A DNA stretch of 41,009 bases from a virus. The stretch spans positions 1 to 41,009 of IMG/VR virus record IMGVR_UViG_3300045051_000231, one strand, 5' to 3'. Shown piece after piece: positions 3,460 through 20,385 of the stretch (within the stretch, counting starts at the first letter, position 1; each line of letters starts with the position of its first letter). The notes below the pieces were generated by a model. That model was not told the origin of the DNA, did no database searches, and saw only the letters and a program-made list of their open reading frames with translations. A program made the position numbers and the translations under genes.

Positions 3460-5241
3460 GTGCTTGACACTCAAGGCCAGGAGTTCAAGGACAAGCTCGC
3501 CGCTACTCGCCTCCGCTGCCTAAGCGATCTCTATTTCCTAGTCACGGAAGTCTTGTACTGGAACGACATCCACAAGTACGGCCCGTTCCACAAGTGGATG
3601 GCGGATACTGTGGGCAAGACGCCTGGCACCCGCGAACTATGGCTCGTCCCGCGCGACCACTTCAAGACGACCATCCTCACCATCGGCCACGGCATTCAGC
3701 AAATCCTCAGAGACCCAGGCGTCTCGCTACTCGTCGTCTCGCGCAAGGATGAGCACGCGCTGCTGATGTCGGAGGAGATGCGCCGCCAGTTCGTCTTCAA
3801 CGAGCGCATGCGCAGCCTATTCCCCGGCTGGTGCAGCGCCACTCTGGATGACATGGGCAGCAAGGGAGAGTGGACCTCACCCGGCTACAAGATTATCCGT
3901 GGCAAGCGCCGACGCGAGCATACCGTCACAGCAACTGGTATCAAGTCGACGCAGCAATCCCGCCACTACAAATGGGGCTACTTCGACGATTGCATGGACG
4001 CGGCCGACACCACCGAGGTTGGCCTGCGTGAGATCCGCGCCGACTTCAAGGAGTTGATCCCGCTTATCGACAACGACGGCGGCATCATCATCCCCGGCAC
4101 CCGCAAACACTACAACGATATCTATCAGGCGCAGATGGACACCGGCGCCTACAAGGTGTATGTGCGCCACGGCCTCGAAGGCAAAGAGCGGTGCAAGCTG
4201 GATGAGTGCAGCCGCTATGCCGAGCCGCACAACGAGCCGCAGTTCAAGACTGGCACAGCACTCTGTCCCGAGCGCATGAAGCGCGAGGACTACGATCGCA
4301 AGCTGCGTGAGTGTGAGATCGATCCCAAGAGCGGCGTCAGCTTCTTCTACCACGAGTACATGAACATTCCGTTCAGTCCCAGCGACCGCAAGTTCCAGCC
4401 GCGCTGGTTCGTGCAGGTGGACGACGGCAACATACCTGGCCTAGTTGCACCATTCGACCCGCTGACCAAGTGGATAGCCGTCGATACGGCGCTGAAGGAA
4501 GAGGAGCACCCGAGCGGCTACGACTATACCTGCATAGTGGTCGGCGGCTTCGATGAGCACGGCAGGCTATTCATTCTCGATATACTGCGCGACCGCCACT
4601 GGACAGCCAAGAAGTTCTGCGAAGCGGTGGTGACGTGCATGCAGTCGCAGGAGTACGGCGGCATCAGCCGAGTGATTACCGAGAAGGTGGCTGACAACAT
4701 CAGTTGGCACGACACGCTGCGCGGCATGTGCAGAGCGAAAGGTGTGCCACTCATGCTGCTCAGCCTTACCCGTGGTGGTGGCGGCGTCATGGCGCGCCGC
4801 TCCAAGTACGAGCGCATCGAAGCCACTCAGGGTCACTTTGAGCAGGGCCGCGTATTCTTCCGTCGTAAGTCGGCTAACTTCGAGGATTGCGTCAACGAGT
4901 TCTGCAACCTGCGCCGCTGGACGAATGACGACATCGCCGACGCCATCAGCATGTTCTTTGATGAGCGCGTGATTGTCATGCCGCCGCACAAGGCTGCGGC
5001 CCAGCTGCCTGCTGCACAATTCCACCCGATGCCATTCGACGGGCCAGCCAGGCGAGCCGCCTTCAGGCAGGTGTCGCACTCCTCAAAGGGACTGACGGCC
5101 GCCGAGTTCCTGCGCAACGGGCAACTGTCGGTTGACGGCCGCGGCGGCATACTGTTCACCAAAGAGCAAGCCGACTTGTTTGCCACTCGTCCTGACAAGA
5201 AGCAAGAGCAGCTAGTGACTGCATTCAGGCCGATGCGATGA
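3460..5241 (+). CDS. terL: Terminase large subunit (ATPase/nuclease)
   Basis: DNA-packaging motor, 593 aa, with a GTG start behind GAGGTAAGTAG. The N-terminal ATPase domain shows a divergent Walker A at residues 65-71 (RDHFKTT, in LVPRDHFKTTIL) and a Walker B at about 172-178 (WGYFDDC). The C-terminal RNase H-like nuclease starts at WIAVDTA with a candidate metal Asp at 342. Further acidic candidates are E408 (ITEKVADN) and the D490/D491/D494 cluster (NDDIADAI). Length and domain order fit TerL. It is followed by portal with an ATGA overlap. Confidence 0.93.
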   Translation: MLDTQGQEFKDKLAATRLRCLSDLYFLVTEVLYWNDIHKYGPFHKWMADTVGKTPGTRELWLVPRDHFKTTILTIGHGIQQILRDPGVSLLVVSRKDEHALLMSEEMRRQFVFNERMRSLFPGWCSATLDDMGSKGEWTSPGYKIIRGKRRREHTVTATGIKSTQQSRHYKWGYFDDCMDAADTTEVGLREIRADFKELIPLIDNDGGIIIPGTRKHYNDIYQAQMDTGAYKVYVRHGLEGKERCKLDECSRYAEPHNEPQFKTGTALCPERMKREDYDRKLRECEIDPKSGVSFFYHEYMNIPFSPSDRKFQPRWFVQVDDGNIPGLVAPFDPLTKWIAVDTALKEEEHPSGYDYTCIVVGGFDEHGRLFILDILRDRHWTAKKFCEAVVTCMQSQEYGGISRVITEKVADNISWHDTLRGMCRAKGVPLMLLSLTRGGGGVMARRSKYERIEATQGHFEQGRVFFRRKSANFEDCVNEFCNLRRWTNDDIADAISMFFDERVIVMPPHKAAAQLPAAQFHPMPFDGPARRAAFRQVSHSSKGLTAAEFLRNGQLSVDGRGGILFTKEQADLFATRPDKKQEQLVTAFRPMR

Positions 5242-7136
5242 TTCCAGGTGCTTATCCAACTGGCTCACCCGACGACGCCATCCTCAACATCTGGCACCGG
5301 CGCAAGGCTATCAGCCAGCGACTGCGCGATCCGTATGAGGGGACGTGGGTGCAGAACTGGAGAGCGTACCGCGCTTTTCAGGAGGAGACGCCCGACCCAG
5401 CCGACTGGTGGAGGAGTAACGAGTACATACCAGAGATATTCAACTCGGTAGAGACTGTGCTGCCGCGCATGATCTTGGGAATGTTCAGCAAACCCGAGTG
5501 GTTTGACGTGAATTGTCCACACGCCAACATTCCCGGCCACCCTGGACTCAACTGCTTTGACTATGAGCGAATGGTGAAGTCGCTGCTCATGAGTGGAACG
5601 CGGCGCATGAATCTGTTTGAGCCAGCCTATGAAGGCTGCAAGTACTGCACCATCATGGGCCACGTCTGGTGGAAGCTGCGTTGGGAGCAGGATGTACAGA
5701 ACCGTGCGGTGGACGTGCCGGTGATGGACCCGTCAACCGGTGAGATGCACAGCGCCACCATGGCCGTACCCTATATGGCCTATGACGATCCCAAGCTGGA
5801 CTGGGTGAGCAACTTCCGCTTGTGGCCAGATCCCACTGGCCAAGGTGAATGGTTCATCGAGCGCATCGACACGACGCTAGAGAAGCTGATGCGCATCAAC
5901 CAGCACACCGGCATCTACAAGAATCTAGAGACGCTGGAGCGCGCACCCGTCAATTTGATGAAGGAGACTAACTCGCCAGTCGCGCGCACAGATGGCTACA
6001 GCAACAGAGAGCTGGAGATTGATGCGATTGAGGGTGTGCAGACGGATACGCGCGACGAGGGCCACGAGGGCACACCGATTCAACTGGACGTGTGCGTCGG
6101 CATGGTGCCTTATGAGCCCGATGACGGAATTCACTGGCGCCGACAGGTGATAGCTAACAACTTCACCATCATCCGTGACGTGCCTAATCCGACGCCTGAC
6201 ATGAAGCCTGAGTACTTCAGCAGCCAGCAAATACCCGTACCAGGCTTTGTCTATGGTGACAGCGTGGTACGTTATGCAGAACCAATGAATCGTCAGCTCA
6301 ACCGGCTGGCCAACTACCGAATGGACGAGGTGGTGCTCGGTATCTGGCAGCAGTACATCCTCAATCGCAATGCTGTGACACCCAATCAGCTACAGTTTGG
6401 GCCTGGCGGTGTCATCTGGGTAGACACGCAGGCTGATGTGCGCACCGCCGCCGCTGTGCTGGAGCGCCGGCCAGTGATGCCTGAGAGTTACAAGGAAGAG
6501 GCGGTGAGCATGGATCGCATTCAGCGCACTACTGGCGCGACGGCCATTCAGCAGGGTGCGCAGTCCAGCGACAGAGAGACAGCCACCAGTGTCGGTGCGC
6601 GTGTGCAACTAGGAAGCGAGCGATTCCGCCTGGCCGTAATGTGGCAGAACATGACATTCAAGCGTCAGCTGCTGAAGCGCATGTTCGCACTCTATCAGCG
6701 CCACTTGCCGCCTGAGCGACTCGTGCGCATCGTCGGCACGGACTATCAGGTGCCAATCGACATCAGCATGCTTCAGGACGACATCGACATAGACATCGAC
6801 GCCGACATTTACGACATAGACGGCCCGCTGAAGCAGCAGGCGTTGACGCAGTTGATGCAGGCTGCTGCGGTGCCGCCATACTCGACTTGGCTGCGTCCAG
6901 AAGTTCTACTGAGAGACAGCGTGGAAGTCGCGCTGAACAAGGACGGTCGCAAGTATGTCAAGTCTGCTGAAGAAGTGGCTGCCGAATCTCAGGCTGCTCT
7001 GTTCCGGGCTGTCACGCTCGCTGGTCTCGGCTTGGAGCCGGATGCGTCGGGAGGAAACACCCTCGCTTCCGAGAACATTAAGTCTCGAACAGCTATCCAG
7101 AAACAGCGTAAGAGTGTATCTGGAAGCGCTGCATAA
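5238..7136 (+). CDS. Portal protein
   Basis: Twelve-subunit ring at the capsid vertex through which DNA passes. The protein has 632 aa and overlaps terL by ATGA. Recognisable features are the N-terminal WHRRKAISQRLRDPYEGTW segment, a long mixed alpha/beta body with PNPTPDMKPEYFSS, and the conserved FVYGDSVVRYAEPMNRQLN region typical of podovirus-type portals. An Asp/Ile-rich stretch (DDIDIDIDADIYDID) lies near residues 513-530, before the C-terminal helices. Position directly after terL and before scaffold and capsid supports the call. Confidence 0.88.
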   Translation: MIPGAYPTGSPDDAILNIWHRRKAISQRLRDPYEGTWVQNWRAYRAFQEETPDPADWWRSNEYIPEIFNSVETVLPRMILGMFSKPEWFDVNCPHANIPGHPGLNCFDYERMVKSLLMSGTRRMNLFEPAYEGCKYCTIMGHVWWKLRWEQDVQNRAVDVPVMDPSTGEMHSATMAVPYMAYDDPKLDWVSNFRLWPDPTGQGEWFIERIDTTLEKLMRINQHTGIYKNLETLERAPVNLMKETNSPVARTDGYSNRELEIDAIEGVQTDTRDEGHEGTPIQLDVCVGMVPYEPDDGIHWRRQVIANNFTIIRDVPNPTPDMKPEYFSSQQIPVPGFVYGDSVVRYAEPMNRQLNRLANYRMDEVVLGIWQQYILNRNAVTPNQLQFGPGGVIWVDTQADVRTAAAVLERRPVMPESYKEEAVSMDRIQRTTGATAIQQGAQSSDRETATSVGARVQLGSERFRLAVMWQNMTFKRQLLKRMFALYQRHLPPERLVRIVGTDYQVPIDISMLQDDIDIDIDADIYDIDGPLKQQALTQLMQAAAVPPYSTWLRPEVLLRDSVEVALNKDGRKYVKSAEEVAAESQAALFRAVTLAGLGLEPDASGGNTLASENIKSRTAIQKQRKSVSGSAA

Positions 7137-8441: not shown

Positions 8442-9410
8442 ATGACTATCACCACCACTGGCATAGCGACGCTCATCCCGGCGTACTATGACCGCAAGTT
8501 ACTGGACAACCTTTATCCCGACCTGTATCTCTACCAGTTCGGCGTCAAGAAGCCCGTCCCGCGCAACTTCGGCAAGACGATCACCTTCACGCGCTACTTC
8601 ACCTCCGGCACCAGTCATCCGCTGCCATTTCAGGTGACCGAGGGAACGCCAATCGGTCTGTCCAACCTGTCGGCCGCGACTATCACTGCCACGCTCAGCG
8701 AGTATGCGTCAGCTATCGGCGTCAGCGACCTAATCGTCATGACGGCTATTAGCGACGTTGTGCGTGGCGCCGTCTACGAGTTGTCGAAGGGTGCAGCGCT
8801 GAAGATCGAGCGCAAGACTCGCCAGACGATCAGCGCGACGGGTGCTCTATTGCCGGCTCGCAATACCGCTGGCACCGGCTCAGTCACAATCGCCACCACC
8901 AGCACTCTGCAGGGCCGCGACTTGTATCGTGCGGTGGCCAAGCTCCGTCAGTCGAACGCTCGCACGTGGCCGGACGGTTACTTCGCCGCAGTCATGCACC
9001 CGCGCGTGGCTCTCGATGTCAAGAGTGAGGCGGCCACCACGTCACCTGGCGCCTGGATTGAAGTCAACAAGTACGCTACCAACGAAACAGTCGGCATGGT
9101 GTATCGCGGTGAAGTCGGCCGCATCGGCGGCGCTCGTGTTGTCGAGTCGAGTGAAGCGAAGCGCCTGGTGGGTGTCCCGATTTCCACCAATGCCAGCGGC
9201 TTTATGACGCTGGTCATTGGGCCTGGTGCTTACGGTGAGGCCGAGTTGGACGGTATGGCCGCATCCGTGTACGTGAAGCCAGTCGGCAGCGCCGGATCAG
9301 CCGACCCGGCCAACCAGCGCGGCAGTATTGCTGTGAAGGTGCTGTTCGCTCCTGTGGCACTGGAGGCGGCCCGCATGGTGCGTCTGACCAGCGGTGGCGC
9401 GCTCCTCTAG
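8442..9410 (+). CDS. Major capsid protein, N4-gp56 family
   Basis: Forms the icosahedral shell. The protein has 322 aa with a GAGGAATC ribosome-binding site. The N-terminus (YYDRKLLDNLYPDLYLYQFG), the segment NFGKTITFTRYFTSG followed by the TEGTPIG loop, and the Ala/Ser/Thr-rich HK97-type core match what I know of the N4-gp56 family. Other supports are FAAVMHPRVALDV and YGEAELDG. It sits after the scaffold and lacks a prohead-protease neighbour, as in podoviruses. Confidence 0.9.
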   Translation: MTITTTGIATLIPAYYDRKLLDNLYPDLYLYQFGVKKPVPRNFGKTITFTRYFTSGTSHPLPFQVTEGTPIGLSNLSAATITATLSEYASAIGVSDLIVMTAISDVVRGAVYELSKGAALKIERKTRQTISATGALLPARNTAGTGSVTIATTSTLQGRDLYRAVAKLRQSNARTWPDGYFAAVMHPRVALDVKSEAATTSPGAWIEVNKYATNETVGMVYRGEVGRIGGARVVESSEAKRLVGVPISTNASGFMTLVIGPGAYGEAELDGMAASVYVKPVGSAGSADPANQRGSIAVKVLFAPVALEAARMVRLTSGGALL

Positions 9411-9422
9411 AAAGGAGTCTAC

Positions 9423-9782
9423 ATGGCAGAACGATTCAATCGCGACCCTACATACGATCTCGGCAGGCACATCGTCACCGGAGAAACCGGGCCGCTTAGC
9501 GGCGACCCGGCAATCCAGAAGTTTGATGCCGAGCTGGATCGCAACGATCCAATGGACAGCTTCACGGCTGGCGTCACTGCAGGCCTATTCGAGGGCCAGT
9601 CCGCCGAGGCTATCCAAGAAATGAATCTCACTCAGGCACTCGGCATGCAGTCTGGCGCAGGACAAGCAGGTCTACCAGTCAACATGCAGGTGGCCAACGA
9701 TTGTCATGACGAGCCGTCGAAGGGCGGCCTCGCATACGGTCCGCGCTATACAGACAGCGAGCGCGACAATGGAGGTTACTGA
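9423..9782 (+). CDS. Small virion-associated protein candidate, 119 aa
   Basis: Function unknown. It has a strong AAAGGAG ribosome-binding site right after the capsid gene. The protein is acidic and Gly/Gln/Asn-rich (RHIVTGETGPLSGDPAIQKF, DPMDSFTAGVTAGLFEG). No membrane segment. Its immediate position after the capsid gene suggests a capsid decoration or assembly role, which is inference. Its C-terminus YGPRYTDSERDNGGY resembles the end of the 53-aa gene at 9977 (SGPRYVGESDAP). Confidence 0.75.
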   Translation: MAERFNRDPTYDLGRHIVTGETGPLSGDPAIQKFDAELDRNDPMDSFTAGVTAGLFEGQSAEAIQEMNLTQALGMQSGAGQAGLPVNMQVANDCHDEPSKGGLAYGPRYTDSERDNGGY

Positions 9783-9967
9783 TGGCTGACATCACGGTTG
9801 ATGTGAACTGGGAAATCCTTCCAGCCAGAGAAGTGCTTGGCAACGGCGCCAATCGCTTCGACTGCTGGAGGCAGAACGACACGCTAGGCCCGTACCCGCC
9901 GACTGCCGAGTCTGGTCCGCCGGAGACTGAAGGCGAGCCTGGCAATGCACCAACGGCCGGCGGCTAG
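9782..9967 (+). CDS. Small hypothetical protein, 61 aa, paralogue of the next gene
   Basis: The ATG overlaps the previous TGA (TGATG). The N-terminus MADITVDVNWEI matches MPKVEIDVDWEI of the next gene, so the pair probably arose by duplication. The rest is Pro/Gly/Glu-rich and looks disordered (PPETEGEPGNAPTAGG). Its place in the virion block suggests a structural or assembly peptide. Confidence 0.65.
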   Translation: MADITVDVNWEILPAREVLGNGANRFDCWRQNDTLGPYPPTAESGPPETEGEPGNAPTAGG

Positions 9968-10144: not shown

Positions 10145-10576
10145 ATGCGTCCCGGCAGACACGGCTCCATGTCGTCTGGCGAGTTCGAGCAGATACTCGT
10201 CCGCAACGCAAACTTTCTATCCGTCCGCCGCGCCGGGAGCGGCGACGGACTCGCCGGCCTCTACAATGCAGTCAATGGCGACTTCGTGCTCGGCATTACA
10301 CCCGGCACGATGCCAGAGTACTCGCACATGACTAAGCTCACCTACAACTGTGACTGCAGCCCACGCGCTCTCTGCAAGCGCGGCATTCACGGCACTGGTC
10401 TGGTGCGCGGCTGGCGCAACATTCTGTTCGAGTTGGCCACTCGCGGCCGCGTGCGCATCACCAACGAGATAGTCCGCACACTCGGCGAAGAGGACACGAT
10501 ACATGCAATGTCCAAGTTGCTGGCGGCCGCACCTGGCGGCAACCCAGCGCCTGCATGGGAGTACAGCAGCCTATGA
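10145..10576 (+). CDS. Hypothetical protein with CDC/CKRG motif, 143 aa
   Basis: No family recognised. It is globular-looking, with YNCDCSPRALCKRGIHGTG around residues 68-86 that could hold a metal through three Cys and a His. The end (PAPAWEYSSL) overlaps the glycosyltransferase start (ATGA), so it is coupled to the sugar-modification cassette. The 14-base string CCTGCATGGGAGTA in its tail recurs near 11972 in the second glycosyltransferase (NPAWEYEHD). Confidence 0.7.
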   Translation: MRPGRHGSMSSGEFEQILVRNANFLSVRRAGSGDGLAGLYNAVNGDFVLGITPGTMPEYSHMTKLTYNCDCSPRALCKRGIHGTGLVRGWRNILFELATRGRVRITNEIVRTLGEEDTIHAMSKLLAAAPGGNPAPAWEYSSL

Positions 10577-11403
10577 GTGACAACCCGATAGTCAGCGTAA
10601 TCATCAGCACCTACGACAGGCCGCAACGTCTCGACACAGCACTTGCAAGTGTGCACGCTCAGACATTCACCGACTTCGAGGTAATCGTCATAGACGACTG
10701 CTCGCCAGATAACGAAGCGGTGCACGCAGTACTTGAGAAGTGGAATGACAAGTTTGAGGAGCGCGGCGTCGAGTTGAAAGGCATCCGGCTTGGCGAGAAC
10801 AGCGGCTATCAGTGCATGCCTAAGAACATCGGCGTCGGATTCTCGCGCGGCACTTACATTGCCTATCTGGATGACGACAACACGTGGCGGCCTGAGCATC
10901 TGAGCAAGTGCGTCGCTGCCATCGAAGCCGACTTCAGCACCGATATGGTGTACTCGCGTCTTTGCTACCACGCAGACGAGGCGGCCAATGCGGCATACAA
11001 GGAGAAGTCTGGTGTCGAGTTGCCAATCGGTGACGCTGAAGGCCAGCAGTGGAATCCTCATCTTCTGAGTGTGCGCAACTACATAGACACCAGCACCATC
11101 TTGCATAGTAAGGGTGCATTTGTGCGGTTGGTGCGAGACTCTGGCAAAGGTTGGGATGAAAAACTGCGCCGCTTCGGTGACTGGAACTTCGTCTGGCGCT
11201 GGGCCGTGCATGGACTGAGCGGCAAGTTGGTGGATGCAGTGACAGTGGACTATAACTGGCACATGGGTAGCATGCAACTGAGTCGTCCAGCCATCGAGGT
11301 GCCTGTATGTTTGAACTACTCACAGTATCACGCGATGAAGCACGACCGCGACATCGAGTTGCGTGCTGCATCGTCACTCGCAGCGGCCGGGAACGTTACC
11401 TAA
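10573..11403 (+). CDS. Glycosyltransferase family 2 (GT-A fold)
   Basis: Transfers a sugar from a nucleotide-sugar donor, in the cytoplasm. The protein has 276 aa with an ATGA overlap to the preceding gene. Classic family 2 signature: VSVIISTYDRPQRLDTALAS (residues 8-26), VIVIDDCSPD (37-46), and metal-binding YLDDDN at 99-103 (DDD 100-102). The GWDEKLRRFGDWNFVWRWA segment near 193-211 fits the catalytic base/acceptor region. No membrane segments, so a soluble enzyme. The acceptor is unknown. Its place in the virion operon suggests modification of a virion or tail protein, or a newly made host glycan (inference). Confidence 0.87.
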   Translation: MSDNPIVSVIISTYDRPQRLDTALASVHAQTFTDFEVIVIDDCSPDNEAVHAVLEKWNDKFEERGVELKGIRLGENSGYQCMPKNIGVGFSRGTYIAYLDDDNTWRPEHLSKCVAAIEADFSTDMVYSRLCYHADEAANAAYKEKSGVELPIGDAEGQQWNPHLLSVRNYIDTSTILHSKGAFVRLVRDSGKGWDEKLRRFGDWNFVWRWAVHGLSGKLVDAVTVDYNWHMGSMQLSRPAIEVPVCLNYSQYHAMKHDRDIELRAASSLAAAGNVT

Positions 11404-12023
11404 AGCGCACATTAGCCGGGTTGCGCAAGCAGCCGGTAGATATTCTGCTTTGGGCCAACGGTCCAATCGACCACAAGCTGGCAGACGGCTGCGTCTACTT
11501 TCGCCAGCACGAGTTTAACGTCGGCCAGCACGTTGCGCACAACGAGATGCTGGACGAGTGTGTGCGGCGCGGCTACGACTGGCACATTCGCATCGATGAC
11601 GACTGCTGGATCAGCACGCGCAACTGGCTCAAGCGTCTTTTAGCAGCCCAGGAAGCGATTAAGAAGCTGCGTGGCAAGTATCTGGTGCTGGGCATAGACA
11701 TCAAAGGGCTGAACAGTCCGCCGCCTCGGCTTGAGGGTTACGAGATTGGCCGCGAAGTCATGGAGCGCGTAGACATACTCGGCGGCATCTTCCGCATGGC
11801 ACCGATGTCCATGATGCAATACTTCCGTTGGGATGAGCGGCAGGCGATGGGCTTCGGTGACGCCACCCAGTTCCGCTCATTCTGCGAGTCCACCACCACC
11901 GAGTTGATGCGCATTGTAGGGATTCGGGCCACGCACGGAGAGAGCACCAACTCACAGAACGACACCAACCCTGCATGGGAGTATGAGCATGACATGCTGC
12001 AGTACATTCCGCTGGGGCTATAG
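11307..12023 (+). CDS. Glycosyltransferase, family 2-like
   Basis: The protein has 238 aa. The ATG at 11307 lies 97 bases inside the previous gene in another frame and has its own GAGGTGCCTGT ribosome-binding site. There is no usable later start before the first beta strand (RVACCIVTRSGRERYLKRTL). The metal-binding motif is RIDDDCW at residues 95-101. The C-terminal half contains EYEHDMLQYIPLGL. The GT-A-like core appears complete but short, so it may work with the neighbouring transferases. Donor and acceptor are unknown. Confidence 0.75.
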   Translation: MFELLTVSRDEARPRHRVACCIVTRSGRERYLKRTLAGLRKQPVDILLWANGPIDHKLADGCVYFRQHEFNVGQHVAHNEMLDECVRRGYDWHIRIDDDCWISTRNWLKRLLAAQEAIKKLRGKYLVLGIDIKGLNSPPPRLEGYEIGREVMERVDILGGIFRMAPMSMMQYFRWDERQAMGFGDATQFRSFCESTTTELMRIVGIRATHGESTNSQNDTNPAWEYEHDMLQYIPLGL

Positions 12024-12617
12024 ATGCGCGCCATCTTAGACTTCGACGACTTGTGCGACACCAACGATCCATACGACGCGCTGGTCAAGCTGCACGAGCG
12101 CGACTCCAACTTCAAGGTGACGCTATTCGCCATACCAGTCCGCTGCTCCGAGGCCTTGCTGCACAAGTACTCGAAGATTAGCGACTGGTGCCAGCTAGCC
12201 GTGCACGGTTGGCGTCACTCACGTCATGAGGCCTTGGGCTGGAACAGTGAGGAGACCAATGACAGGCTGCAGAAGGCGCAGTCGCTCTATCCAGGCTTCG
12301 CCAAGTTGTTCAAGGCGCCTAACTGGGAAACGCACAACGAGACATACGCCGGCTGCAAGGCTGCAGGATTCGCCATTGCCGACCACATCCGCAACATCGA
12401 GATTCTACCGGCCAAGCAGCCGCATTACATTTACAACATCCGGCTTCGCGGCGACAAGTTTACCCGTCTACACGGTCACATTCAGCCGTGGGACGGAACA
12501 GGATTGACGGAGAATGCAGATGAGAGTGGAATCAACCCAGCGTACCTATTGCCCGTCGGCACCGACTACGCCTTCTGCGCCGAAGCAGTCACGACGGACA
12601 AGGGAGTGGCAATCTGA
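12024..12617 (+). CDS. Polysaccharide deacetylase-like protein (NodB-type)
   Basis: The protein has 197 aa and starts at the base after the previous TAG. NodB-like metal site: Asp pair in LDFDDLCD (D8, D9) and the HxxxH pair HGWRH (H61, H65), then FKAPNW in place of the usual RxPxG/Y loop. These residues suggest a metal-dependent N- or O-deacetylase acting on a sugar. No signal peptide is present, so it should act in the cytoplasm, unlike most cell-wall deacetylases. That fits modification of a sugar made by the neighbouring transferases. The Arg-to-Lys change in the third motif leaves activity uncertain. Confidence 0.72.
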   Translation: MRAILDFDDLCDTNDPYDALVKLHERDSNFKVTLFAIPVRCSEALLHKYSKISDWCQLAVHGWRHSRHEALGWNSEETNDRLQKAQSLYPGFAKLFKAPNWETHNETYAGCKAAGFAIADHIRNIEILPAKQPHYIYNIRLRGDKFTRLHGHIQPWDGTGLTENADESGINPAYLLPVGTDYAFCAEAVTTDKGVAI

Positions 12618-13191
12618 TCAGGCTTATATAGCCGATCAGGACGAGACGAGCAGCTGGAGCAGCGAATCCATCTGGGGAGAGGCTGCGGCCAGCAAACTAG
12701 TGGCCTTCGGTCACTGGTTGGGTACTCGTCTCTGCCATGACGACAAGGTAGCCGACTTCGGCGGCAACGATGGCTTCGCTTCATTCAACTTCTACCTGGT
12801 GCACAAGGTGAAGCCGCTGGTGGTGGACTGCGAGCCGCGCCGCCTTGAGCATGCCGACAAGGTATACAAGTTATCCACTTACCAGACTTTCATAGAGAGT
12901 ATGCCTGAGCTGGCCGACGACTCAATCGACTGGGGCTTCACGTCGCACACTCTTGAGCACACGAGAGACACAGAACGTGCTATGCGTGAAATGGCTCGTG
13001 TGGTGAAGCGCGGCTGCCTGTTTGTCGTCCCACTGGAAGACTTGAGGCATGCGAGGCGCAACCATGCACACGCCATCTGCTTCACCAAGGAGAGCGACTG
13101 GGCCAAACTCTTGCGGCGCAACGGCTGGAATGTCATCTCGTGCAAGAAGGTGATTAAGCACGAGTGCCACATCTATGCGGAGCCCTTATGA
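12520..13191 (+). CDS. SAM-dependent methyltransferase, class I
   Basis: The protein has 223 aa from the ATG at 12520, which has GGAG seven bases upstream; an ATG at 12514 has poorer spacing. It overlaps the deacetylase gene by 98 bases in another frame. Motif I VADFGGNDG lies at residues 77-85, the acidic motif II is VVDCEP, and the HTLEHTRDTERAMREMARVV helix plus GCLFVVP strand match the methyltransferase 11-type family that often methylates sugars. The Ser/Thr-rich N-terminal 50 residues look disordered and exist only because of the overlap. The substrate is unknown; a sugar is favoured by context. Confidence 0.82.
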   Translation: MRVESTQRTYCPSAPTTPSAPKQSRRTREWQSDQAYIADQDETSSWSSESIWGEAAASKLVAFGHWLGTRLCHDDKVADFGGNDGFASFNFYLVHKVKPLVVDCEPRRLEHADKVYKLSTYQTFIESMPELADDSIDWGFTSHTLEHTRDTERAMREMARVVKRGCLFVVPLEDLRHARRNHAHAICFTKESDWAKLLRRNGWNVISCKKVIKHECHIYAEPL

Positions 13192-13580
13192 TGAGTGCAA
13201 ATGATCTCACGCGCAAGATGCTGACTGGGTGCGGCCACACGCAGGCAATCATTGTGCCGCATGACGAGTGTGTCGCGGCTCAGTTGGCTCAGTGGGAGGC
13301 CGCCATCAGACTCGACTGTGCGCGAGTGCACGCCAGAGAGCACCGACAGTCCATTGACGACAACAATGCAGCTACCGAGTTGGCCAAACAGGAAGTTGAG
13401 AAGCTGACGAGAAAGGCAGACGCCTTGAGTATTCGCGTGACTACTCTGAATGAGTCTAATGCGCTACTGAGAGCCGAGTTGCGTGCTGCGCTGGCCGAGA
13501 TTGACGACTTGAGCGCTCGACTGAAGGCTGAGGGCCTGCAGAACCAGTATGCCAAGTATCCGCAGGTGGTGAGCGAGTGA
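13188..13580 (+). CDS. Coiled-coil protein, 130 aa
   Basis: The ATG at 13188 overlaps the methyltransferase stop and follows GGAG. The N-terminal part has Cys/His residues (CGHTQAIIVPHDEC). Residues about 50-118 form a long coiled coil (EVEKLTRKADALSIRVTTLN, then LRAELRAALAEIDDLSARL). It could be a scaffold that holds the modifying enzymes together, or a virion component. No family recognised. Confidence 0.72.
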   Translation: MMSANDLTRKMLTGCGHTQAIIVPHDECVAAQLAQWEAAIRLDCARVHAREHRQSIDDNNAATELAKQEVEKLTRKADALSIRVTTLNESNALLRAELRAALAEIDDLSARLKAEGLQNQYAKYPQVVSE

Positions 13581-14680
13581 ATATAGTCGGCATTCACCTT
13601 GAGCCTGGCGGTGTCGGCTGGCTGCGCTGTTGGAACTGGACGACGGCGCTTAGCAAGCGCGGCCACAGCGTCAAGCACCGCCCGCACGAGAGCAAACAGT
13701 TTGAGTGGCGCGAGATTGACAACTACCTGCGCGATGCAGACGTGGTGATTGCCGGACGCATGGCTCATGAGCAAGTGTTTCTGGCGCTACTGGCTGGCCG
13801 CGACTTGTACCATTACAAGCTGATCATCGACACTGACGACAATTCAGACGACATCCCGCATTTCAACTATGCGCACCCTGACTATCATGCTGGCACTGGG
13901 CTGTCGAGGCTAGTGCGGCTGGAGTTGCGCGAGGCTGACTTGGTAACAGTCAGCACGCGCCGACTTGCAGAGTGGGCCAAGCAGTACGCCAAGCGAGTGG
14001 TGGTGCAGCCTAACTGTGTGGACACCAGCTTATATGCCAACGTGCACAGTCGGCCCAAGGAGCCGCGCCACTCAACGGATCAGCGCATCTACTGGGGCGG
14101 TGGCGGCGGCCACTACGGTGACTTGTTGCTAGTCAAGGAGCCGCTGCTGCAGATTATGGCTGAGCGGCCTAACGTCAAGCTGGTATTCAGTCTGTTCATA
14201 CCCGACTGGGCCGCCAGCCTGCCGCCATTCCGCTGCTTCATGATCCGCTTCGCGCACTTCAACGCCTACCCAAAGGTACTCAAGGCAATCAACGCAGATG
14301 TGGCACTGGCACCGCTTGTCGAGCACGAGTTCAACCGCTGTAAATCAAACATTAAGTATCTCACATACGCCATGGCTGACATTCCTGGCGTCTATCAGGA
14401 CATTGACGCCTACGAGTGCGTGCGCCACGGCTATGACGGCATGAAGGCGCGCACTCAGGACGACTGGTACAAGCACATCAGCACGCTGCTGGACAATCGA
14501 GAGCTGGCCAGCCGTATTGCACATCAAGCCAAGACTGAGGTGCTGACGCATTGGACAACCGAGTCGCACATTGCACGCTACGAGCGCATGCTGCAGGAGT
14601 TGATTACGCCGCGGCCTGTGCCTGAGCAACAGATGGTTAAAGAGGGCGAGCCAATCGAGGTGACTACATGGGTATCGTAG
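13577..14680 (+). CDS. Glycosyltransferase family 4-like (GT-B fold)
   Basis: The protein has 367 aa with a GTG start overlapping the previous stop (GTGA). A two-domain GT-B layout is readable: N-terminal domain MNIVGIHLEPGGVGWLRCWN, with DTDDNSDD at about 85-92; hinge region with VVQPNCVDTSLY (142-153), the usual GT4 interdomain signature; C-terminal domain with YWGGGGGHYGDL (172-183), NADVALAPL, and the donor-binding SNIKYLTYAMADIPG. This third transferase completes a cassette able to build a short modified glycan. It overlaps the head-tail adaptor gene by 13 bases, so it belongs to the late operon. Confidence 0.83.
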   Translation: MNIVGIHLEPGGVGWLRCWNWTTALSKRGHSVKHRPHESKQFEWREIDNYLRDADVVIAGRMAHEQVFLALLAGRDLYHYKLIIDTDDNSDDIPHFNYAHPDYHAGTGLSRLVRLELREADLVTVSTRRLAEWAKQYAKRVVVQPNCVDTSLYANVHSRPKEPRHSTDQRIYWGGGGGHYGDLLLVKEPLLQIMAERPNVKLVFSLFIPDWAASLPPFRCFMIRFAHFNAYPKVLKAINADVALAPLVEHEFNRCKSNIKYLTYAMADIPGVYQDIDAYECVRHGYDGMKARTQDDWYKHISTLLDNRELASRIAHQAKTEVLTHWTTESHIARYERMLQELITPRPVPEQQMVKEGEPIEVTTWVS

Positions 14681-15426
14681 TAGTCCCGACTAGTGGAGGT
14701 GGCCAACCAACCTGTGGATCCGGCAGCCATCTAGTTGATGAAGTGGCAGCGTGCATAGGAGGCGTTGACGAGGACAACGTGCGCGTGCAGGCGCTGCACT
14801 GTGTCAATCGCGCACGCAACGAAGTCAACATGCACGACTGGCGATTTCTGAAGCGCAGCGTAGCCAGCACGGCATTCACCAACGCGACAGCTACCTACTC
14901 ACTGCCTACCACATTCAAGTCGCCCAGCTGGTTCCAGATACTCGATAGCAATAGCAAGCCATTCAGAGACTTGGTGTACACCGACGATGCTGCCTTGGTG
15001 CATTCATCGCCCCAGCAGACGCTCAGCGGACCACCCAGCATCTACTCGCTGCGCAACACATTCGAGGACGGCCTGATTACCTTCTATCCGATACCAGACA
15101 CCAGCACGGCCAGCGGCTACACCTGGCAAGGCGAGTACTACACGCGTATACCCAACATCACTGACGACTCTACTGACTTGAGCAGCATTCCAGAAGAGAT
15201 TTGCAACGTAATCATAGCCGGCGGCCAGTACTTTCTAGTGAGCGAGCGCCAGAAGGAGAATACCGCCATGATCAATCTGAAATGGCAGGACTATCAGCGG
15301 GTGAAGAATCTGGCGCTGGTGAACGATCGGCGCATGACAGACAACACTCAGTCGCGCTTTAGGCTGCCGTCTCGTCGTGCCACCAACTTCACCAACTCTA
15401 ACGACTTCTATGGCTGGTTCCCTTAG
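14668..15426 (+). CDS. Head-tail adaptor (gp4/gp11-like connector) candidate
   Basis: Probably the ring joining portal to tail. The protein has 252 aa. It opens with a Gly/Val-rich strand and a helical segment (VRVQALHCVNRARNEVNMHDWRFL), typical of podovirus adaptors. YSLPTTFKSPSW, FYPIPDTSTASGYTWQGEYY and the helical WQDYQRVKNLALVNDRRM also match that family pattern as I know it. It is the first tail gene after the modification cassette. An alternative is a tail tubular protein A. Confidence 0.72.
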   Translation: MGIVVVPTSGGGQPTCGSGSHLVDEVAACIGGVDEDNVRVQALHCVNRARNEVNMHDWRFLKRSVASTAFTNATATYSLPTTFKSPSWFQILDSNSKPFRDLVYTDDAALVHSSPQQTLSGPPSIYSLRNTFEDGLITFYPIPDTSTASGYTWQGEYYTRIPNITDDSTDLSSIPEEICNVIIAGGQYFLVSERQKENTAMINLKWQDYQRVKNLALVNDRRMTDNTQSRFRLPSRRATNFTNSNDFYGWFP

Positions 15427-16494
15427 ATGGCGCAGCTTGGCCGCTTTGAGTATACGGTAATCGACAGATCCGGCAATGCGATTAGCGGCGCATCTGTGGA
15501 GGTGCGCAAGCAGGGTGCGCAGGTTAGTGGCGCACAGGCTGGCTCACCTTATACCGTCAACGACATTGGTGGCATTATCGTAGGCGACACGGTTAAGCTG
15601 AACACCGGCAGCACATCGCGCAACGTTTCGGCCATCAGTGCTACAACTGTAACAACTAGCGGTGGCGACCTAGGCGCTGTCATTGACGACGATCGCATTA
15701 CCTGTGTGACGCTGCCGACTATATACGAAGACGCGCTGGGTGCCACCAGCACACCCAATCCTCTCACCACTGATGCCAATGGCTACTGTAGCTGCTATGC
15801 AGAAGGCGGCAAGTACGACATGCTGATCACCGCTGGTGCCAATGTGCGACTCGTCACCGATGTCACAGTCGTCGGCGAGGACAATCGCAGCAACATATTC
15901 AACAGCGGCACGGCTGTGGCGTTCAAGTTTGATACTCTGCGCAACCTAGGCGCTGCTGACAAGATTCTGCAGGTGAGCCGGCTGGAGAGTAATGAGGTAT
16001 TCAGTGTCGGCGGGACTGGCAATGTTGCTATAGCTGGGACGTTGGACGTAACTGGCACTACAGCTCTCACAGGCGCTGCAACTCTGGCCACGCTCAACGT
16101 TACAGGCGCCACGACCCTTGATGTTACAACTGTGAACGGAAATCTAACAACTATTGGGACAATTGGCGACGTGGGCAGGACAGAACTGGTTAGTGGTGTC
16201 GCATCTGGCTCAGCGTTGCTCGGTGCATTCTCTATCACCTCAACCAACAATCTTGTAGGCGCAACTGACAATCTGATGGTTATCTACAATGCCGGCGTGG
16301 CCAAGATGCAAGTCACCAAGGATGGTGATATAGGACCGCGCCAACTTGGACCGCTATTGACGGCTGGTGTCGGTGCGCCCGGAGCATTGGTTCAGCCAAA
16401 AGGCACTATCTACATGCGCACAGACGGCGGCGTCGGCACGACTATCTATGTGAGTCAAGGCGGCGGCACGTGGAATCCTATAGCAGGAGTCTAA
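15427..16494 (+). CDS. Tail fibre protein with shared virion-anchor domain
   Basis: The protein has 355 aa and starts at the base after the adaptor stop. Residues 1-150 (MAQLGRFEYTVIDRSGNAIS onward) are similar to the N-terminus of the tailspike at 18052 (MPQLGRFDEHIIDR). Both therefore probably dock on the same virion site. The middle is Thr/Gly/Val-rich repeats (TLDVTGTTALTGAATLATLN), as in beta-prism or triple-helix shafts. The C-terminus GTIYMRTDGGVGTTIYVSQG resembles the trimerising end of many tail fibres. Confidence 0.78.
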   Translation: MAQLGRFEYTVIDRSGNAISGASVEVRKQGAQVSGAQAGSPYTVNDIGGIIVGDTVKLNTGSTSRNVSAISATTVTTSGGDLGAVIDDDRITCVTLPTIYEDALGATSTPNPLTTDANGYCSCYAEGGKYDMLITAGANVRLVTDVTVVGEDNRSNIFNSGTAVAFKFDTLRNLGAADKILQVSRLESNEVFSVGGTGNVAIAGTLDVTGTTALTGAATLATLNVTGATTLDVTTVNGNLTTIGTIGDVGRTELVSGVASGSALLGAFSITSTNNLVGATDNLMVIYNAGVAKMQVTKDGDIGPRQLGPLLTAGVGAPGALVQPKGTIYMRTDGGVGTTIYVSQGGGTWNPIAGV

Positions 16495-16495
16495 T

Positions 16496-18052
16496 GTGCC
16501 AGTAGTCAATACAACACTTCTGCAGAGTTGGCTGGACGCCAATAACAGGTGGACTGGCCAGAACACGTTTGAAGATATTGTGTTCAATGGCGTTATATCA
16601 GCTGACGGGCCGATTGTCACATCTGCCAATCCAGCGACTCATGAGATTGTTGTAGATCCGAATGGACTGGTAGGCGGATTCCCTACTCTGCCACTAGCTG
16701 TCTCATATGTCTCTGGTGTCGCATCGTCATCCAATCAGTGGACTATCAGACTATTGCCTGGTAAGTACACACTCTCAAGCGTTCTAACAGTTCCATCGTA
16801 CACATCAATTATAGGCTCTGGCAGGGATGCCAGCATAATCACTCGCACGGTCAATCTGGCCAACTCGGTAGATAGCGTCTATGACCCAGTAGTCAATGTC
16901 GCCAGCACTACAGGCGTCACGCTGAAGAATCTGACGATCAATGCAGCGGCGCCAGACCAATCGCTAAGCGGATCGCCAACTAGCGGGCCGCTTGCCGTGT
17001 GTGGCTCGAATGCCGTGAGTCTGGTAATCGACTCCTGCCGGCTGGTGAGCAATCACACGGCCTATGAGGCGACTGACAGCGCCGTAACCACTACTCTAGT
17101 TGAGTCCAGCGCGCCATTGTTCATCAACTCTCAGTTTATCGCTTATGGCCCGGATGCTAGCAAGCACCAGAAATCGAATGGCGTGTACATCGGCTGCCTG
17201 CTGATTGTTGACATGAGCAGCAGCAGCCCGCAGAACAGTTCATTCGACACAATAGCCATCACTGGCGGTTATCTGCGGATGATCGGCTGCGACATCCGCA
17301 ACGTTCTGCGCAAGACAATCACCAACACTGGGCTGGGCGTCTCATGTGTGATGATGCAGAACAGCGGTGCCGATGTAGTCACAGTCTGGATGGATGGTTG
17401 TAGCTTGATGCTCGACAGCACAGCCGGCGACTTCAACACGGCATCCGGCCGCACGGCGTGCGTTGACTTGCGCATAGGATCGGCCACGACTGGCGATGCA
17501 CTCCTCTATGCCAATGGCTCACAATTCCATTACCAGACAGGCACAGTAACTTCGATGAAGTACATCTGCGGCCTTCTGGTTGGCCAGCCTGGCGATAATG
17601 CTCTGCGCGGTCAGGCATTCCTTAGCAACGTGGAGATTCGGGATCTGGCCGGCAGCGGCGGCACGAATCGCAAGGGTGTAATACTCGATGTTACTGGCGT
17701 GCCTGGTACACGTTGCCCGAAGAAGATAGCCGCCACCAATTGCCGCATTGCTGACTATGCAATTGTAAATGCCGCTGGCGCTCCTACTCTCACCCATTCC
17801 AATTACATGGCCAGTGAGCAGGGGCCTAATTACCAAATAGGCAGCAGTACATTTGCCACGGCTGCAACGGTTGCTGCAACTCTCCCAACGGCTTACCCAA
17901 GCATATCATCCGGCGTCACGGACTATATAGTGTGTCTGGAGCCGACAATCGGCGAGACGTTCTGGGTGACAGCGAAGACGAATACCGGGTTCACGCTCAA
18001 CAGTAGCAACGCCGCATCCACAGCCACTGTTCGCTGGCTAATCAGGCGCTGA
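16496..18052 (+). CDS. Beta-helix tail protein (pectin lyase-like fold)
   Basis: The protein has 518 aa. The GTG start follows AGGAGTCTAAT; an ATG two bases earlier hits an immediate stop. The N-terminal NNRWTGQNTFEDIVFNG resembles shaft segments of tail fibres. From about residue 50 (VDPNGLVGGFPTLPLAV) the DNA encodes a right-handed parallel beta helix, with repeated short strands and Asn/Ser turns (GKYTLSSVLTVPSYTSIIGS, VTLKNLTINAA, VSLVIDSCRLVSN). It lacks the anchor domain of its two neighbours, so it may attach to the preceding fibre. Receptor binding or glycan cleavage is likely. Confidence 0.75.
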   Translation: MPVVNTTLLQSWLDANNRWTGQNTFEDIVFNGVISADGPIVTSANPATHEIVVDPNGLVGGFPTLPLAVSYVSGVASSSNQWTIRLLPGKYTLSSVLTVPSYTSIIGSGRDASIITRTVNLANSVDSVYDPVVNVASTTGVTLKNLTINAAAPDQSLSGSPTSGPLAVCGSNAVSLVIDSCRLVSNHTAYEATDSAVTTTLVESSAPLFINSQFIAYGPDASKHQKSNGVYIGCLLIVDMSSSSPQNSSFDTIAITGGYLRMIGCDIRNVLRKTITNTGLGVSCVMMQNSGADVVTVWMDGCSLMLDSTAGDFNTASGRTACVDLRIGSATTGDALLYANGSQFHYQTGTVTSMKYICGLLVGQPGDNALRGQAFLSNVEIRDLAGSGGTNRKGVILDVTGVPGTRCPKKIAATNCRIADYAIVNAAGAPTLTHSNYMASEQGPNYQIGSSTFATAATVAATLPTAYPSISSGVTDYIVCLEPTIGETFWVTAKTNTGFTLNSSNAASTATVRWLIRR

Positions 18053-20385
18053 TGCCACAACTCGGCAGGTTTGATGAGCACATCATAGATAGACTCGGCA
18101 CATCAGTCGCTGGTGCCGATGTGAATGTCTATCGGGAAGGCGCTACGGTGCAGGGTAATCAGTCTGGCACAACGCCACTGGCTGTTACGGTGCGTCATGC
18201 TGGCAAGATAGCCACTGGCGACAGCGTATTTGTAGACGCAGCCACTGGCACAACATACTCAGCGACTCGCACGTCGGCAACTGTCATCACGCTCAGCGGC
18301 TTCACTGGCACACTATCTCTGTCTGGCGGCTCACGTCTCACTCCAAGCAACAATAAGCCGACAATCTATGCCGACGATCAAGGTGGCGCCACCACTAGCC
18401 AGCCATTACTTACCAGCAGTACCGGTCGCGCTCAGTGCTGGATTGAGTTCGGCGCCTATGACTATGTGGTGAGTGGCGGCGGGACGATCAACACGACGTT
18501 TGTCAGCGAGGTACAGCCGACTGAGGCACCTGGGCAAGTTAGATATGCCGATAGCTTCCTTGACGGTGGAACTGTAACAGGCGGCATTCAAGAAGCCATA
18601 GATGATCTAGGCAGCAACGGCGGCGTAGTTCACCTCAGCGGTCCGAAGACTTATACGATTACAGGCACAACGGCTGCTACATCCAGTATATGGCTGCACT
18701 CGAATGTGACACTCGTGCTGAATGGAGCCACGGTGAAGCGCGGGTCTGGCAGCCTCGCGTCTGCCCGCAGCGTTATCAACGCATGTGCCTTTGGCAGTAA
18801 CGGAACGTTGCCCACGTCTGCTGGCACGCTTTCCAACATTACCGTCGTTGGGCCTGGAATAATCGACGGCAATCAAGCCGTGATAGGCGGCAACGTTGGT
18901 ATCGGCGTCGAAATAAAGTTCACCGCCGATCTGAAATTGTCCAATTTTACCGTGCAGAATTGCTTGCAAGATGGTATCGAGACAGATGAGTGTAAGCACG
19001 TTGCCGTGTCGAATATTCATATCGACACATGTGGACAGGCTGCCGGAGTCACCAGCCGTAACGGGATCTCCTGCTATAACAACTCTGGCACCGGGAATGC
19101 CGCTGGATTCTCCCGCTATTACACGATTAACAACGTGTCGATCAAGAGCGTGAACGACAACGCCATGTCGTTCCTGAACGTGGCGAACGTCGCCGTGTCA
19201 AATGTCTCCGTGGATACCTGTAACTACGTGATCGAACTCCAGACCGGCGCGGCCACCATAGCCACAGGGGACAATCGAAACCTGTCGTTCAGCAACTTCA
19301 GCGCGGTCAATTACCGTGGGCCGTCCATTGCATTGATCACCACAGTTACCAATCATCGCTATGACAACGTGACACTATCCAACTCTAATTTCGATGGCGA
19401 CGCATCGCTCCACGATGCAAGCCCGCTCACTCTATTCATGAGCGGAACGACGAACGTCTCGAACATCGCCATCACAAATTGCAATTTCTCGAACGTCAAC
19501 GCGAAGGATACGACCGGACGATCCTGGGCGAATGTACAGGCAACCGGCACAGGAGTTCTCGATGGCGTGCTCGTGTCGAACTGCATCTTCCGTGGCAAGA
19601 CTGGCAGCACGAGGACGAATGACTACGGCGCTTTTGTCGCTGGCTCAGTCAAGAACGTCGTATTCGCCGATTGCCATTGGGGCAATGTTCCAGGTACAGG
19701 GTTCGCCGTCGCAGATCAGGCCAATAATACGACTGAGGACGTGCAGTTCATCCGCTGCAAGTGGGATACCTGCGGCACGCACGGATCGTTCATCGGGTGC
19801 GGCACGGCATCCGGCACGATACGCGGCGTCTACGTCACCGACTGCATCGTGAAAGACTGTGGCACGCAGACAGGCTCCAACGCATATTTTGTGCAGAACA
19901 ATGCGGCTGGATCTACATCGTTCGTGTTTTTCCGAAACTGCCGGGCGTGGCGCACGACTTCGGCGAACATGAATGTGGGCTGCAGCATCAATGGTACAAC
20001 TGGGACTGTAGACGAGATCACTATTGACGGCTGCCTGTTCAAAGGAATGCTCGTGACTCCCTTAGCTGCTGCTGGCGCGCCAACCAACATGCACTTTCGT
20101 CCTCTCCCCGGCAAGGGGACAAACATCACATCCGCCGCTACAGTAGCGATCCCAACAGATGGCGACGTGTTCCATGTGACCGGCGCGACTAATATCACGA
20201 ACGGAATCACGGTCAATCAATGGGACAACGGTCGTCTCGCAACGCTGATCTTCGACAGCACGCCAACGGTAAGTGACACAGGAACATCAGTCCTCGCTGG
20301 CAACTTTGTCGCCACGGCTGACGATACGTTAAGTCTGCGCTGTGACGGGACTAATTGGTATGAGGTTGGCAGGAGCGCCAATTAA
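18052..20385 (+). CDS. Tailspike with anchor domain and beta-helix depolymerase-like domain
   Basis: The protein has 777 aa with a TGATG overlap to the previous gene. Residues 1-155 are the anchor domain shared with the fibre at 15427. From about 175 (GGTVTGGIQEAIDDLGSNGG) a pectate-lyase-type parallel beta helix begins, with NITVVGPGIIDG, LSNFTVQNCLQDGIETDEC, VNDNAMSFLNVANVAVSNV and many more rungs. The C-terminal capping domain ends CDGTNWYEVGRSAN, a common fibre end. It probably binds and may cleave host surface polysaccharide; catalytic residues cannot be assigned. The beta-helix part uses more CG-rich codons than the anchor, suggesting domain exchange. Confidence 0.82.
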   Translation: MPQLGRFDEHIIDRLGTSVAGADVNVYREGATVQGNQSGTTPLAVTVRHAGKIATGDSVFVDAATGTTYSATRTSATVITLSGFTGTLSLSGGSRLTPSNNKPTIYADDQGGATTSQPLLTSSTGRAQCWIEFGAYDYVVSGGGTINTTFVSEVQPTEAPGQVRYADSFLDGGTVTGGIQEAIDDLGSNGGVVHLSGPKTYTITGTTAATSSIWLHSNVTLVLNGATVKRGSGSLASARSVINACAFGSNGTLPTSAGTLSNITVVGPGIIDGNQAVIGGNVGIGVEIKFTADLKLSNFTVQNCLQDGIETDECKHVAVSNIHIDTCGQAAGVTSRNGISCYNNSGTGNAAGFSRYYTINNVSIKSVNDNAMSFLNVANVAVSNVSVDTCNYVIELQTGAATIATGDNRNLSFSNFSAVNYRGPSIALITTVTNHRYDNVTLSNSNFDGDASLHDASPLTLFMSGTTNVSNIAITNCNFSNVNAKDTTGRSWANVQATGTGVLDGVLVSNCIFRGKTGSTRTNDYGAFVAGSVKNVVFADCHWGNVPGTGFAVADQANNTTEDVQFIRCKWDTCGTHGSFIGCGTASGTIRGVYVTDCIVKDCGTQTGSNAYFVQNNAAGSTSFVFFRNCRAWRTTSANMNVGCSINGTTGTVDEITIDGCLFKGMLVTPLAAAGAPTNMHFRPLPGKGTNITSAATVAIPTDGDVFHVTGATNITNGITVNQWDNGRLATLIFDSTPTVSDTGTSVLAGNFVATADDTLSLRCDGTNWYEVGRSAN

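Follow-up and report, generated by a model that had tools for sequence, protein, structure and literature searches.

A conserved glycan gene module between the capsid and head-tail adaptor genes of environmental phages

Glycosyltransferases (GTs) encoded by phages are usually explained by modification of DNA or of the O-antigen, and to our knowledge glycosylated virions of tailed phages have been documented in very few cases. Among the closest described systems, the mycobacteriophages Che8 and Rita carry glycans covalently attached to their major capsid protein (MCP) and linked to phage GTs (Freeman et al. 2023, as cited in PMC11256854), and in the related phage Maravista the GT genes lie close to the genome's 3' end (PMC11256854). 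GT clusters of other environmental phages have often been read as modifying the host surface (PMC7029224). Here we analyzed the entire IMG/VR viral record IMGVR_UViG_3300045051_000231 (41,009 bases; hereafter the window), which has a podovirus-type virion operon on the plus strand, and in it a cassette that a preliminary description had read as two GT2-like transferases, a NodB-type protein, an S-adenosylmethionine (SAM)-dependent methyltransferase (MTase), a coiled-coil protein and a GT4-like transferase, acting together to place a sugar on a virion protein. We confirmed the observation and found partial support for its interpretation: the cassette is a real, old and location-locked glycan module.

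A scan that used the MCPs of a sister group as queries, and was thus blind to the cassette, returned 79 loci (loci and their contigs are numbered with the prefix L). In the sister clade, GT2a, GT2b, the NodB-like gene and the GT4-like gene followed the MCP gene in that order in all 24 contigs with at least 5.5 kb of downstream sequence. In a third clade (L104 to L137; MCP about 33% identical), a single GT4 gene stood directly after the MCP gene in 24 of 26 contigs, with the SU10 adaptor gene next in L106; L128 and L130, from the same scan, had no GT after the MCP gene. Starting from the NodB-like protein instead gave 80 loci, with a GT nearby in 70, an MTase nearby in 53 and the window's capsid family in only 27. 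The island followed a phrog_371 capsid gene in L179 and L182 and a phrog_267 capsid gene in L199, showing that the same type of island adjoins at least three capsid families. When viral contigs were scanned for the GT4-like protein, the window sequence alone found none, and a profile built from five relatives found 42 loci. Pairwise divergence of the MCP and of the enzymes was correlated, with r values of 0.80 to 0.96 over 33 contigs and of 0.54 to 0.72 within the sister clade. Since the order recurs across divergent contigs, the arrangement exceeds chance, and the recurrence of the set at one position in dozens of environmental phages that are only distantly related points to a built-in module rather than stray cargo.

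Within the window clade, GT2a, GT2b and the NodB-like protein were 59 to 80% identical in L003, L004 and L005 alike (MCP 75 to 81% identical), and the MTase and the GT4-like protein were 64 to 71% identical in L003 and L005, the contig of L004 ending within the NodB-like gene. The order GT2a-GT2b-NodB-MTase-GT4 was kept in L013 and L018 (MCP 53 to 54%) and in L015 (MCP 36%). The comparison proposed in the preliminary description, a look for this order at the capsid-adaptor site of other phage genomes, thus came out positive. The coiled-coil-like protein was present in L003 and L005 at 33 to 34% identity, and no match to it was found in L013, L015 or L018. Extra genes were seen at the site, namely, a GT2 gene before the set in L005 and, in L004, an MTase and a GT4 gene before the set and an MTase gene inside it. 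Apart from the cassette, the MCP gene of L004 (L004:4508-6095) looked interrupted, residues 1 to 25 matching at 4508-4576 and residues 20 to 322 at 5181-6095, and no Rfam intron was found; the MCP gene of L100 was likewise split. An Rfam scan of the window, L004, L018, L070 and L100 gave no match.

Profile and structure evidence bore out all six gene identities, with open reading frames at or near the limits first assigned to them (Table 1). The DDD motif of GT2a is invariant, and by profile this protein resembles the structures of chondroitin synthase and SpsA; it also matches the GtrB-like family phrog_22739 (3.4e-11). GT2b, whose PF00535 match is under the Pfam cutoff, is homologous to GT2a by hhalign (E value of 1.5e-5), matches the solved GT 6p61 (4.9e-4) and has two invariant residues, D97 and D99. 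The GT4-like protein reaches BshA (2e-5), TarM and GtfA-type structures by profile, its Pfam matches (PF13524, 1.5e-4) being below the cutoff. The NodB-like protein matched no Pfam family; the best structure matches of its AlphaFold model (predicted local distance difference test score [pLDDT], 92.2) were nearly all CE4 enzymes, with Z scores of 13 to 14 against CE4 deacetylases (maximum, 14.2, over 159 residues). At the metal site, D9, H61 and H65 (Asp-His-His, HxxxH) were invariant in 33 of 33 sequences, and E69, P99, W101, H150 and H152 likewise never varied. Position 8, the usual catalytic base, was Asp in 23 sequences and His in 10, the window having D8-D9. As modeled, the NodB-like protein has a CE4 fold with a conserved metal site and is a putative deacetylase. 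The model also matched the capsid turret protein of Haloferax tailed virus 1 (HFTV1; PDB 8qpg, Z score of 12.2), indicating that a CE4-like fold is found among the particle components of a different tailed virus.

The cassette lies head-to-tail between the capsid-side genes and the SU10-type adaptor, and every junction either overlaps, as the preliminary description had noted, or has no gap. The start codon of GT2a overlaps the stop codon of g10145 by 4 nt, with an alternative upstream ATG at 10555; the subsequent overlaps are 97 nt (GT2a/GT2b), zero gap (GT2b/NodB-like), 104 nt (NodB-like/MTase, kept in L003, L005 and L018), 28 nt (MTase/coiled-coil-like), 4 nt (coiled-coil-like/GT4-like) and 13 nt (GT4-like/adaptor). 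No transmembrane segment was predicted in any cassette protein, in agreement with the earlier view that all of the enzymes are soluble. Each cassette gene has a GC content of 55 to 58%, versus 57.7% for the whole record. Around the cassette there was one consensus terminator match, and promoter matches were at chance level, a pattern consistent with, rather than a test of, a single transcription unit. The product of g10145, the gene that precedes the cassette in the window clade, matched no PHROG family and had no credible Pfam match; its model has a pLDDT of 73 and found no match in a PDB fold search at an E value of ≤0.001, which does not imply a new fold. Downstream of the adaptor lie tail-spike-like genes and a gene for an internal virion protein. 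In the region 15427-20385, two or more tail-spike-like proteins (among them 15427-16494 and 18052-20385) have a related N-terminal domain, as seen through cross-matches in L003 and L005, which suggests that more than one receptor-binding protein is mounted on a common anchor. A subtilisin-type protease with a fervidolysin-like prodomain (PF00082, 3.9e-27) is encoded where the virion operon ends (27811-29247).

Table 1. Genes of the cassette and its surroundings in the window
Feature	Coordinates	Strand	Evidence
Terminase	3460-5241	+	
Portal/head-tail connector	5238-7136	+	
MCP, anchor gene upstream of the island	8442-9410	+	phrog_1357 major head protein, 3.5e-48
Small post-MCP protein, function unknown	9423-9782	+	Conserved in L002-L005; no family match
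61-aa conserved protein, function unknown	9782-9967	+	Conserved in L003-L005
g10145, 143 aa, function unknown	10145-10576	+	Invariant PGRHGxM and GWRNI in alignment
GT2a, soluble GT2 glycosyltransferase, DDD motif	10573-11403	+	PF00535, 1.3e-21
GT2b, second, divergent GT2-type glycosyltransferase	11307-12023	+	PF00535, 4.5e-4; hhalign to GT2a
NodB-like protein, CE4 polysaccharide-deacetylase fold (modeled)	12024-12617	+	AlphaFold model; conserved metal-site residues
Class I SAM-dependent MTase	12514-13191	+	PF08241, 4.6e-9
Coiled-coil-like protein, Cys/His-rich N terminus, accessory	13164-13580	+	Weak matches to coiled-coil families only
GT4-like (GT-B) glycosyltransferase	13577-14680	+	phrog_7162, 1e-28
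SU10-type head-tail adaptor, downstream boundary	14668-15426	+	PF24175, 3.9e-12

Variants of the island give hints about its chemistry. The MTase gene lies at most 400 bp from the NodB-like gene in 30 of 36 contigs, and in L022 the two are fused; the two GT2 domains of L022 are also fused with an MTase, and in L021 the two GT2 domains form one protein. In Nod-factor synthesis, deacetylation by NodB frees an amine, which NodS N-methylates. The adjacency and fusion suggest that here, too, deacetylation and methylation share one product, and N-methylation is offered as a hypothesis only, since the NodS profile match in L022 (0.0034) is below the cutoff. Other islands carry additional genes: a DegT aminotransferase in L064; a SIS isomerase, a GHMP kinase and an RGP (UDP-arabinopyranose mutase-like) gene in L070 (L070:13658-15923), unusual for a 45-kb phage; and, after the MCP gene of L006, a GT2 gene and genes resembling epimerases and an aminotransferase, as judged by sequence only. 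These donor-sugar genes fit glycan chemistry. L092 has a second glycan set downstream of the first island (L092:15806-20426), consisting of a UDP-sugar dehydrogenase-like gene after GT4, GTs, an MTase and a second NodB-like gene at 18917, and L080 has a GroEL-like chaperonin gene (PF00118, 1.2e-53; L080:10237-11778) within the island, between the NodB-like and GT4 genes.

No cultured carrier of the island was found in 50,697 phage records. The NodB-like protein, in its window and L021 versions, was found in none of these records, a nucleotide search with the cassette matched no named phage, and when 84,980 species genomes were scanned for the MCP and the NodB-like protein, no prophage or cellular relative came up. 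Judged by terminase, the closest isolates share only about 25% identity. Related MCPs occur in Bacillus phage Page, Pseudoalteromonas phage vB_Pun_Y3 and Streptomyces phage Kumquat, which have only small genes between the capsid and the adaptor or tail genes, and the phrog_371-group isolates CRP-902, HTVC023P, Pag-Yong1 and Caulobacter RW have no annotated GT island beside the capsid gene. Streptomyces phage Zuko, recovered through a GT4 match, was set aside because its GT and UDP-glucose dehydrogenase genes lie upstream of the terminase gene, a different arrangement. Among annotated records, Podoviridae sp. ctQWt234 (MW202801), from a Manatee Spring metagenome, comes closest in having a comparable island. 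Its metagenomic origin and the islandless cultured relatives indicate that, as far as searched, the system belongs to uncultured phages. We found no paper on NodB together with glycosyltransferases and capsid in phage genomes in the open-licence literature.

On balance, we think it probable that the cassette encodes a cytosolic module, expressed late, that makes a short modified glycan and attaches it to a virion protein. In this scheme, the two GT2-type enzymes and the GT4-type enzyme would assemble a short glycan from host sugar nucleotides, the NodB/CE4-fold enzyme would de-N-acetylate an amino sugar, and the MTase encoded next to it would methylate the deacetylated sugar, possibly at the freed amine; attachment of the glycan to a virion protein, most likely the MCP or one of the small proteins encoded between MCP and adaptor, would take place in the cytoplasm. 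What we observed are the enzyme families, the modeled fold and conserved metal site of the NodB-like protein, the operon position, the deeply conserved order and place of the genes, their covariation with the capsid and the absence of membrane export genes from the records searched; we infer the catalytic activities, the order of the steps, the choice between N- and O-methylation and the virion acceptor. For a module whose enzymes are soluble and whose genes are coexpressed with the head genes and have long been linked to them, an acceptor protein in the particle is the best explanation. Several points weigh against this proposal. The checked cultured relatives build their virions without an island, which is therefore dispensable for assembly as such. 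The contigs of one clade share ancestry, so that the counts given above are not independent events, and the His at position 8 in 10 of 33 NodB homologues suggests that activity may differ among lineages. In addition, the late-operon position also suits enzymes whose substrates, late in infection, are precursors of the host envelope, and the missing phage flippase does not settle the matter, since the host's machinery can flip undecaprenyl-linked intermediates that cytosolic GTs have modified.

The last two points lead to the main rival, in which the module modifies host envelope glycans (O-antigen, teichoic acid or capsule precursors) at the cytosolic face, late in infection, and thereby blocks superinfection or the sticking of progeny to debris. 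This is how the authors of the pelagimyophage study interpreted its GT clusters (PMC7029224), and it would suit the matches of GT2a to polysaccharide synthases, the reach of the GT4 profile to the teichoic acid GT TarM and the tail-spike-like proteins with a beta-helix match nearby; the host's own flippases could serve. We nevertheless consider it rather unlikely. Partner genes were sought in 16 records, namely, the window and 15 related records, of 34 to 55 kb each, some of which may be incomplete. The GtrA flippase was found in none of them, with controls detected in 7 of 14 genomes, nor were Wzx, a priming sugar-phosphate transferase or the Wzy O-antigen polymerase, all with controls detected. 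Of 35 GT2 matches, 29 fell inside the capsid-adaptor island (14 window- and sister-clade records, coordinates converted by hand). The solubility of every cassette enzyme and the fixed place of the islands beside the capsid gene across lineages, with which they covary, also argue against envelope modification.

The other explanations survive less well. The enzymes might make a soluble glycoconjugate or a modified sugar nucleotide with an intracellular role, for example, in counter-defence or metabolism, the capsid-side position only setting the timing; the enzymes are indeed soluble and their sequences name no acceptor, but a capsid link better accounts for the lasting covariation with the capsid gene and for the islands next to unrelated capsid genes, and we regard this alternative as improbable. 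Glycosylation of phage DNA, as base hypermodification, is more doubtful still. Phage GTs do glycosylate DNA (cited in PMC12619734), and L018 GT2b has a TAGT match below threshold (9.3e-4, 13.7 bits; cutoff, 27.5), with a weak one in L021. However, among the 16 records no TAGT transferase was found above the cutoff and no thymidylate-synthase-like, base-forming gene (PF00303) was found, controls for the latter being detected; a search for a Tet/JBP hydroxylase was also negative in all 16, but no control was detected, making that search uninformative. No hypermodification gene was seen among the window proteins scanned, and the island is placed in the virion operon. We also know of no role in DNA glycosylation for a CE4-type deacetylase. 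Least credible of all is passive cargo (a moron) at a tolerant capsid/adaptor insertion point, for although the site takes variable extras (GroEL in L080; GTs and MTases in L004, L005, L064 and L070) and some MCP homologues have no GT there (L128 and L130), four enzymes are retained in 24 of 24 contigs of one clade, metal-site residues are invariant, GC content is genome-typical and divergence parallels that of the MCP.

Virion glycosylation may be extended, more tentatively, to a widespread and uncharacterised capsid-glycosylation system: a fixed capsid-adaptor island beside unrelated capsid genes that possibly uses Nod-factor-like chemistry to build short glycans containing a positively charged amino sugar, de-N-acetylated and methylated, and links these glycans to head proteins in the cytoplasm with no lipid carrier involved. 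A conserved sugar module beside the capsid gene in several environmental lineages suggests that capsid decoration may be common among uncultured phages and, if so, would matter for the stability of particles, their adhesion and adsorption and their visibility to immune systems. The cassette is a defined gene set, testable by expression in laboratory bacteria.

With the NodC/NodB/NodS enzymes of Nod-factor synthesis, the cassette shares a GT2 enzyme, a NodB-fold deacetylase (by model) and a SAM-dependent MTase, the NodB-like gene adjoining or being fused to the MTase gene. In contrast, it has no NodA acyltransferase, its MTase is generic, and GT2a is soluble, whereas NodC is a membrane GT2. Gtr O-antigen conversion likewise involves a GT2-type enzyme, as reflected in the GtrB-like match of GT2a, but the window set has neither a GtrA flippase nor a membrane GT and sits in the virion operon, not apart. 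The island of ctQWt234 runs from the MCP and a small protein through rSAM-GT-PhyH-MT-NodB-like-GT4 to a stabilization protein, and its GT4 is 25% identical over 94% of the query; its enzyme complement is different, and its annotated NodB-like protein aligns poorly with that of the window (25% identity). Che8 and Rita, which bear out the mycobacteriophage precedent invoked in the preliminary description (PMC11256854), resemble the window in having phage GTs; a virion glycan has been reported for them, while the window system is known from its genes. Unlike those of Maravista, the GTs of the window sit between MCP and adaptor, not close to the 3' end. Finally, the pelagimyophage clusters resemble the cassette in combining several GTs and sugar-nucleotide genes amid the structural genes of environmental phages (PMC7029224), but they are small and scattered in a tail-fibre hypervariable region, whereas the cassette occupies a fixed site between capsid and adaptor in a conserved order.

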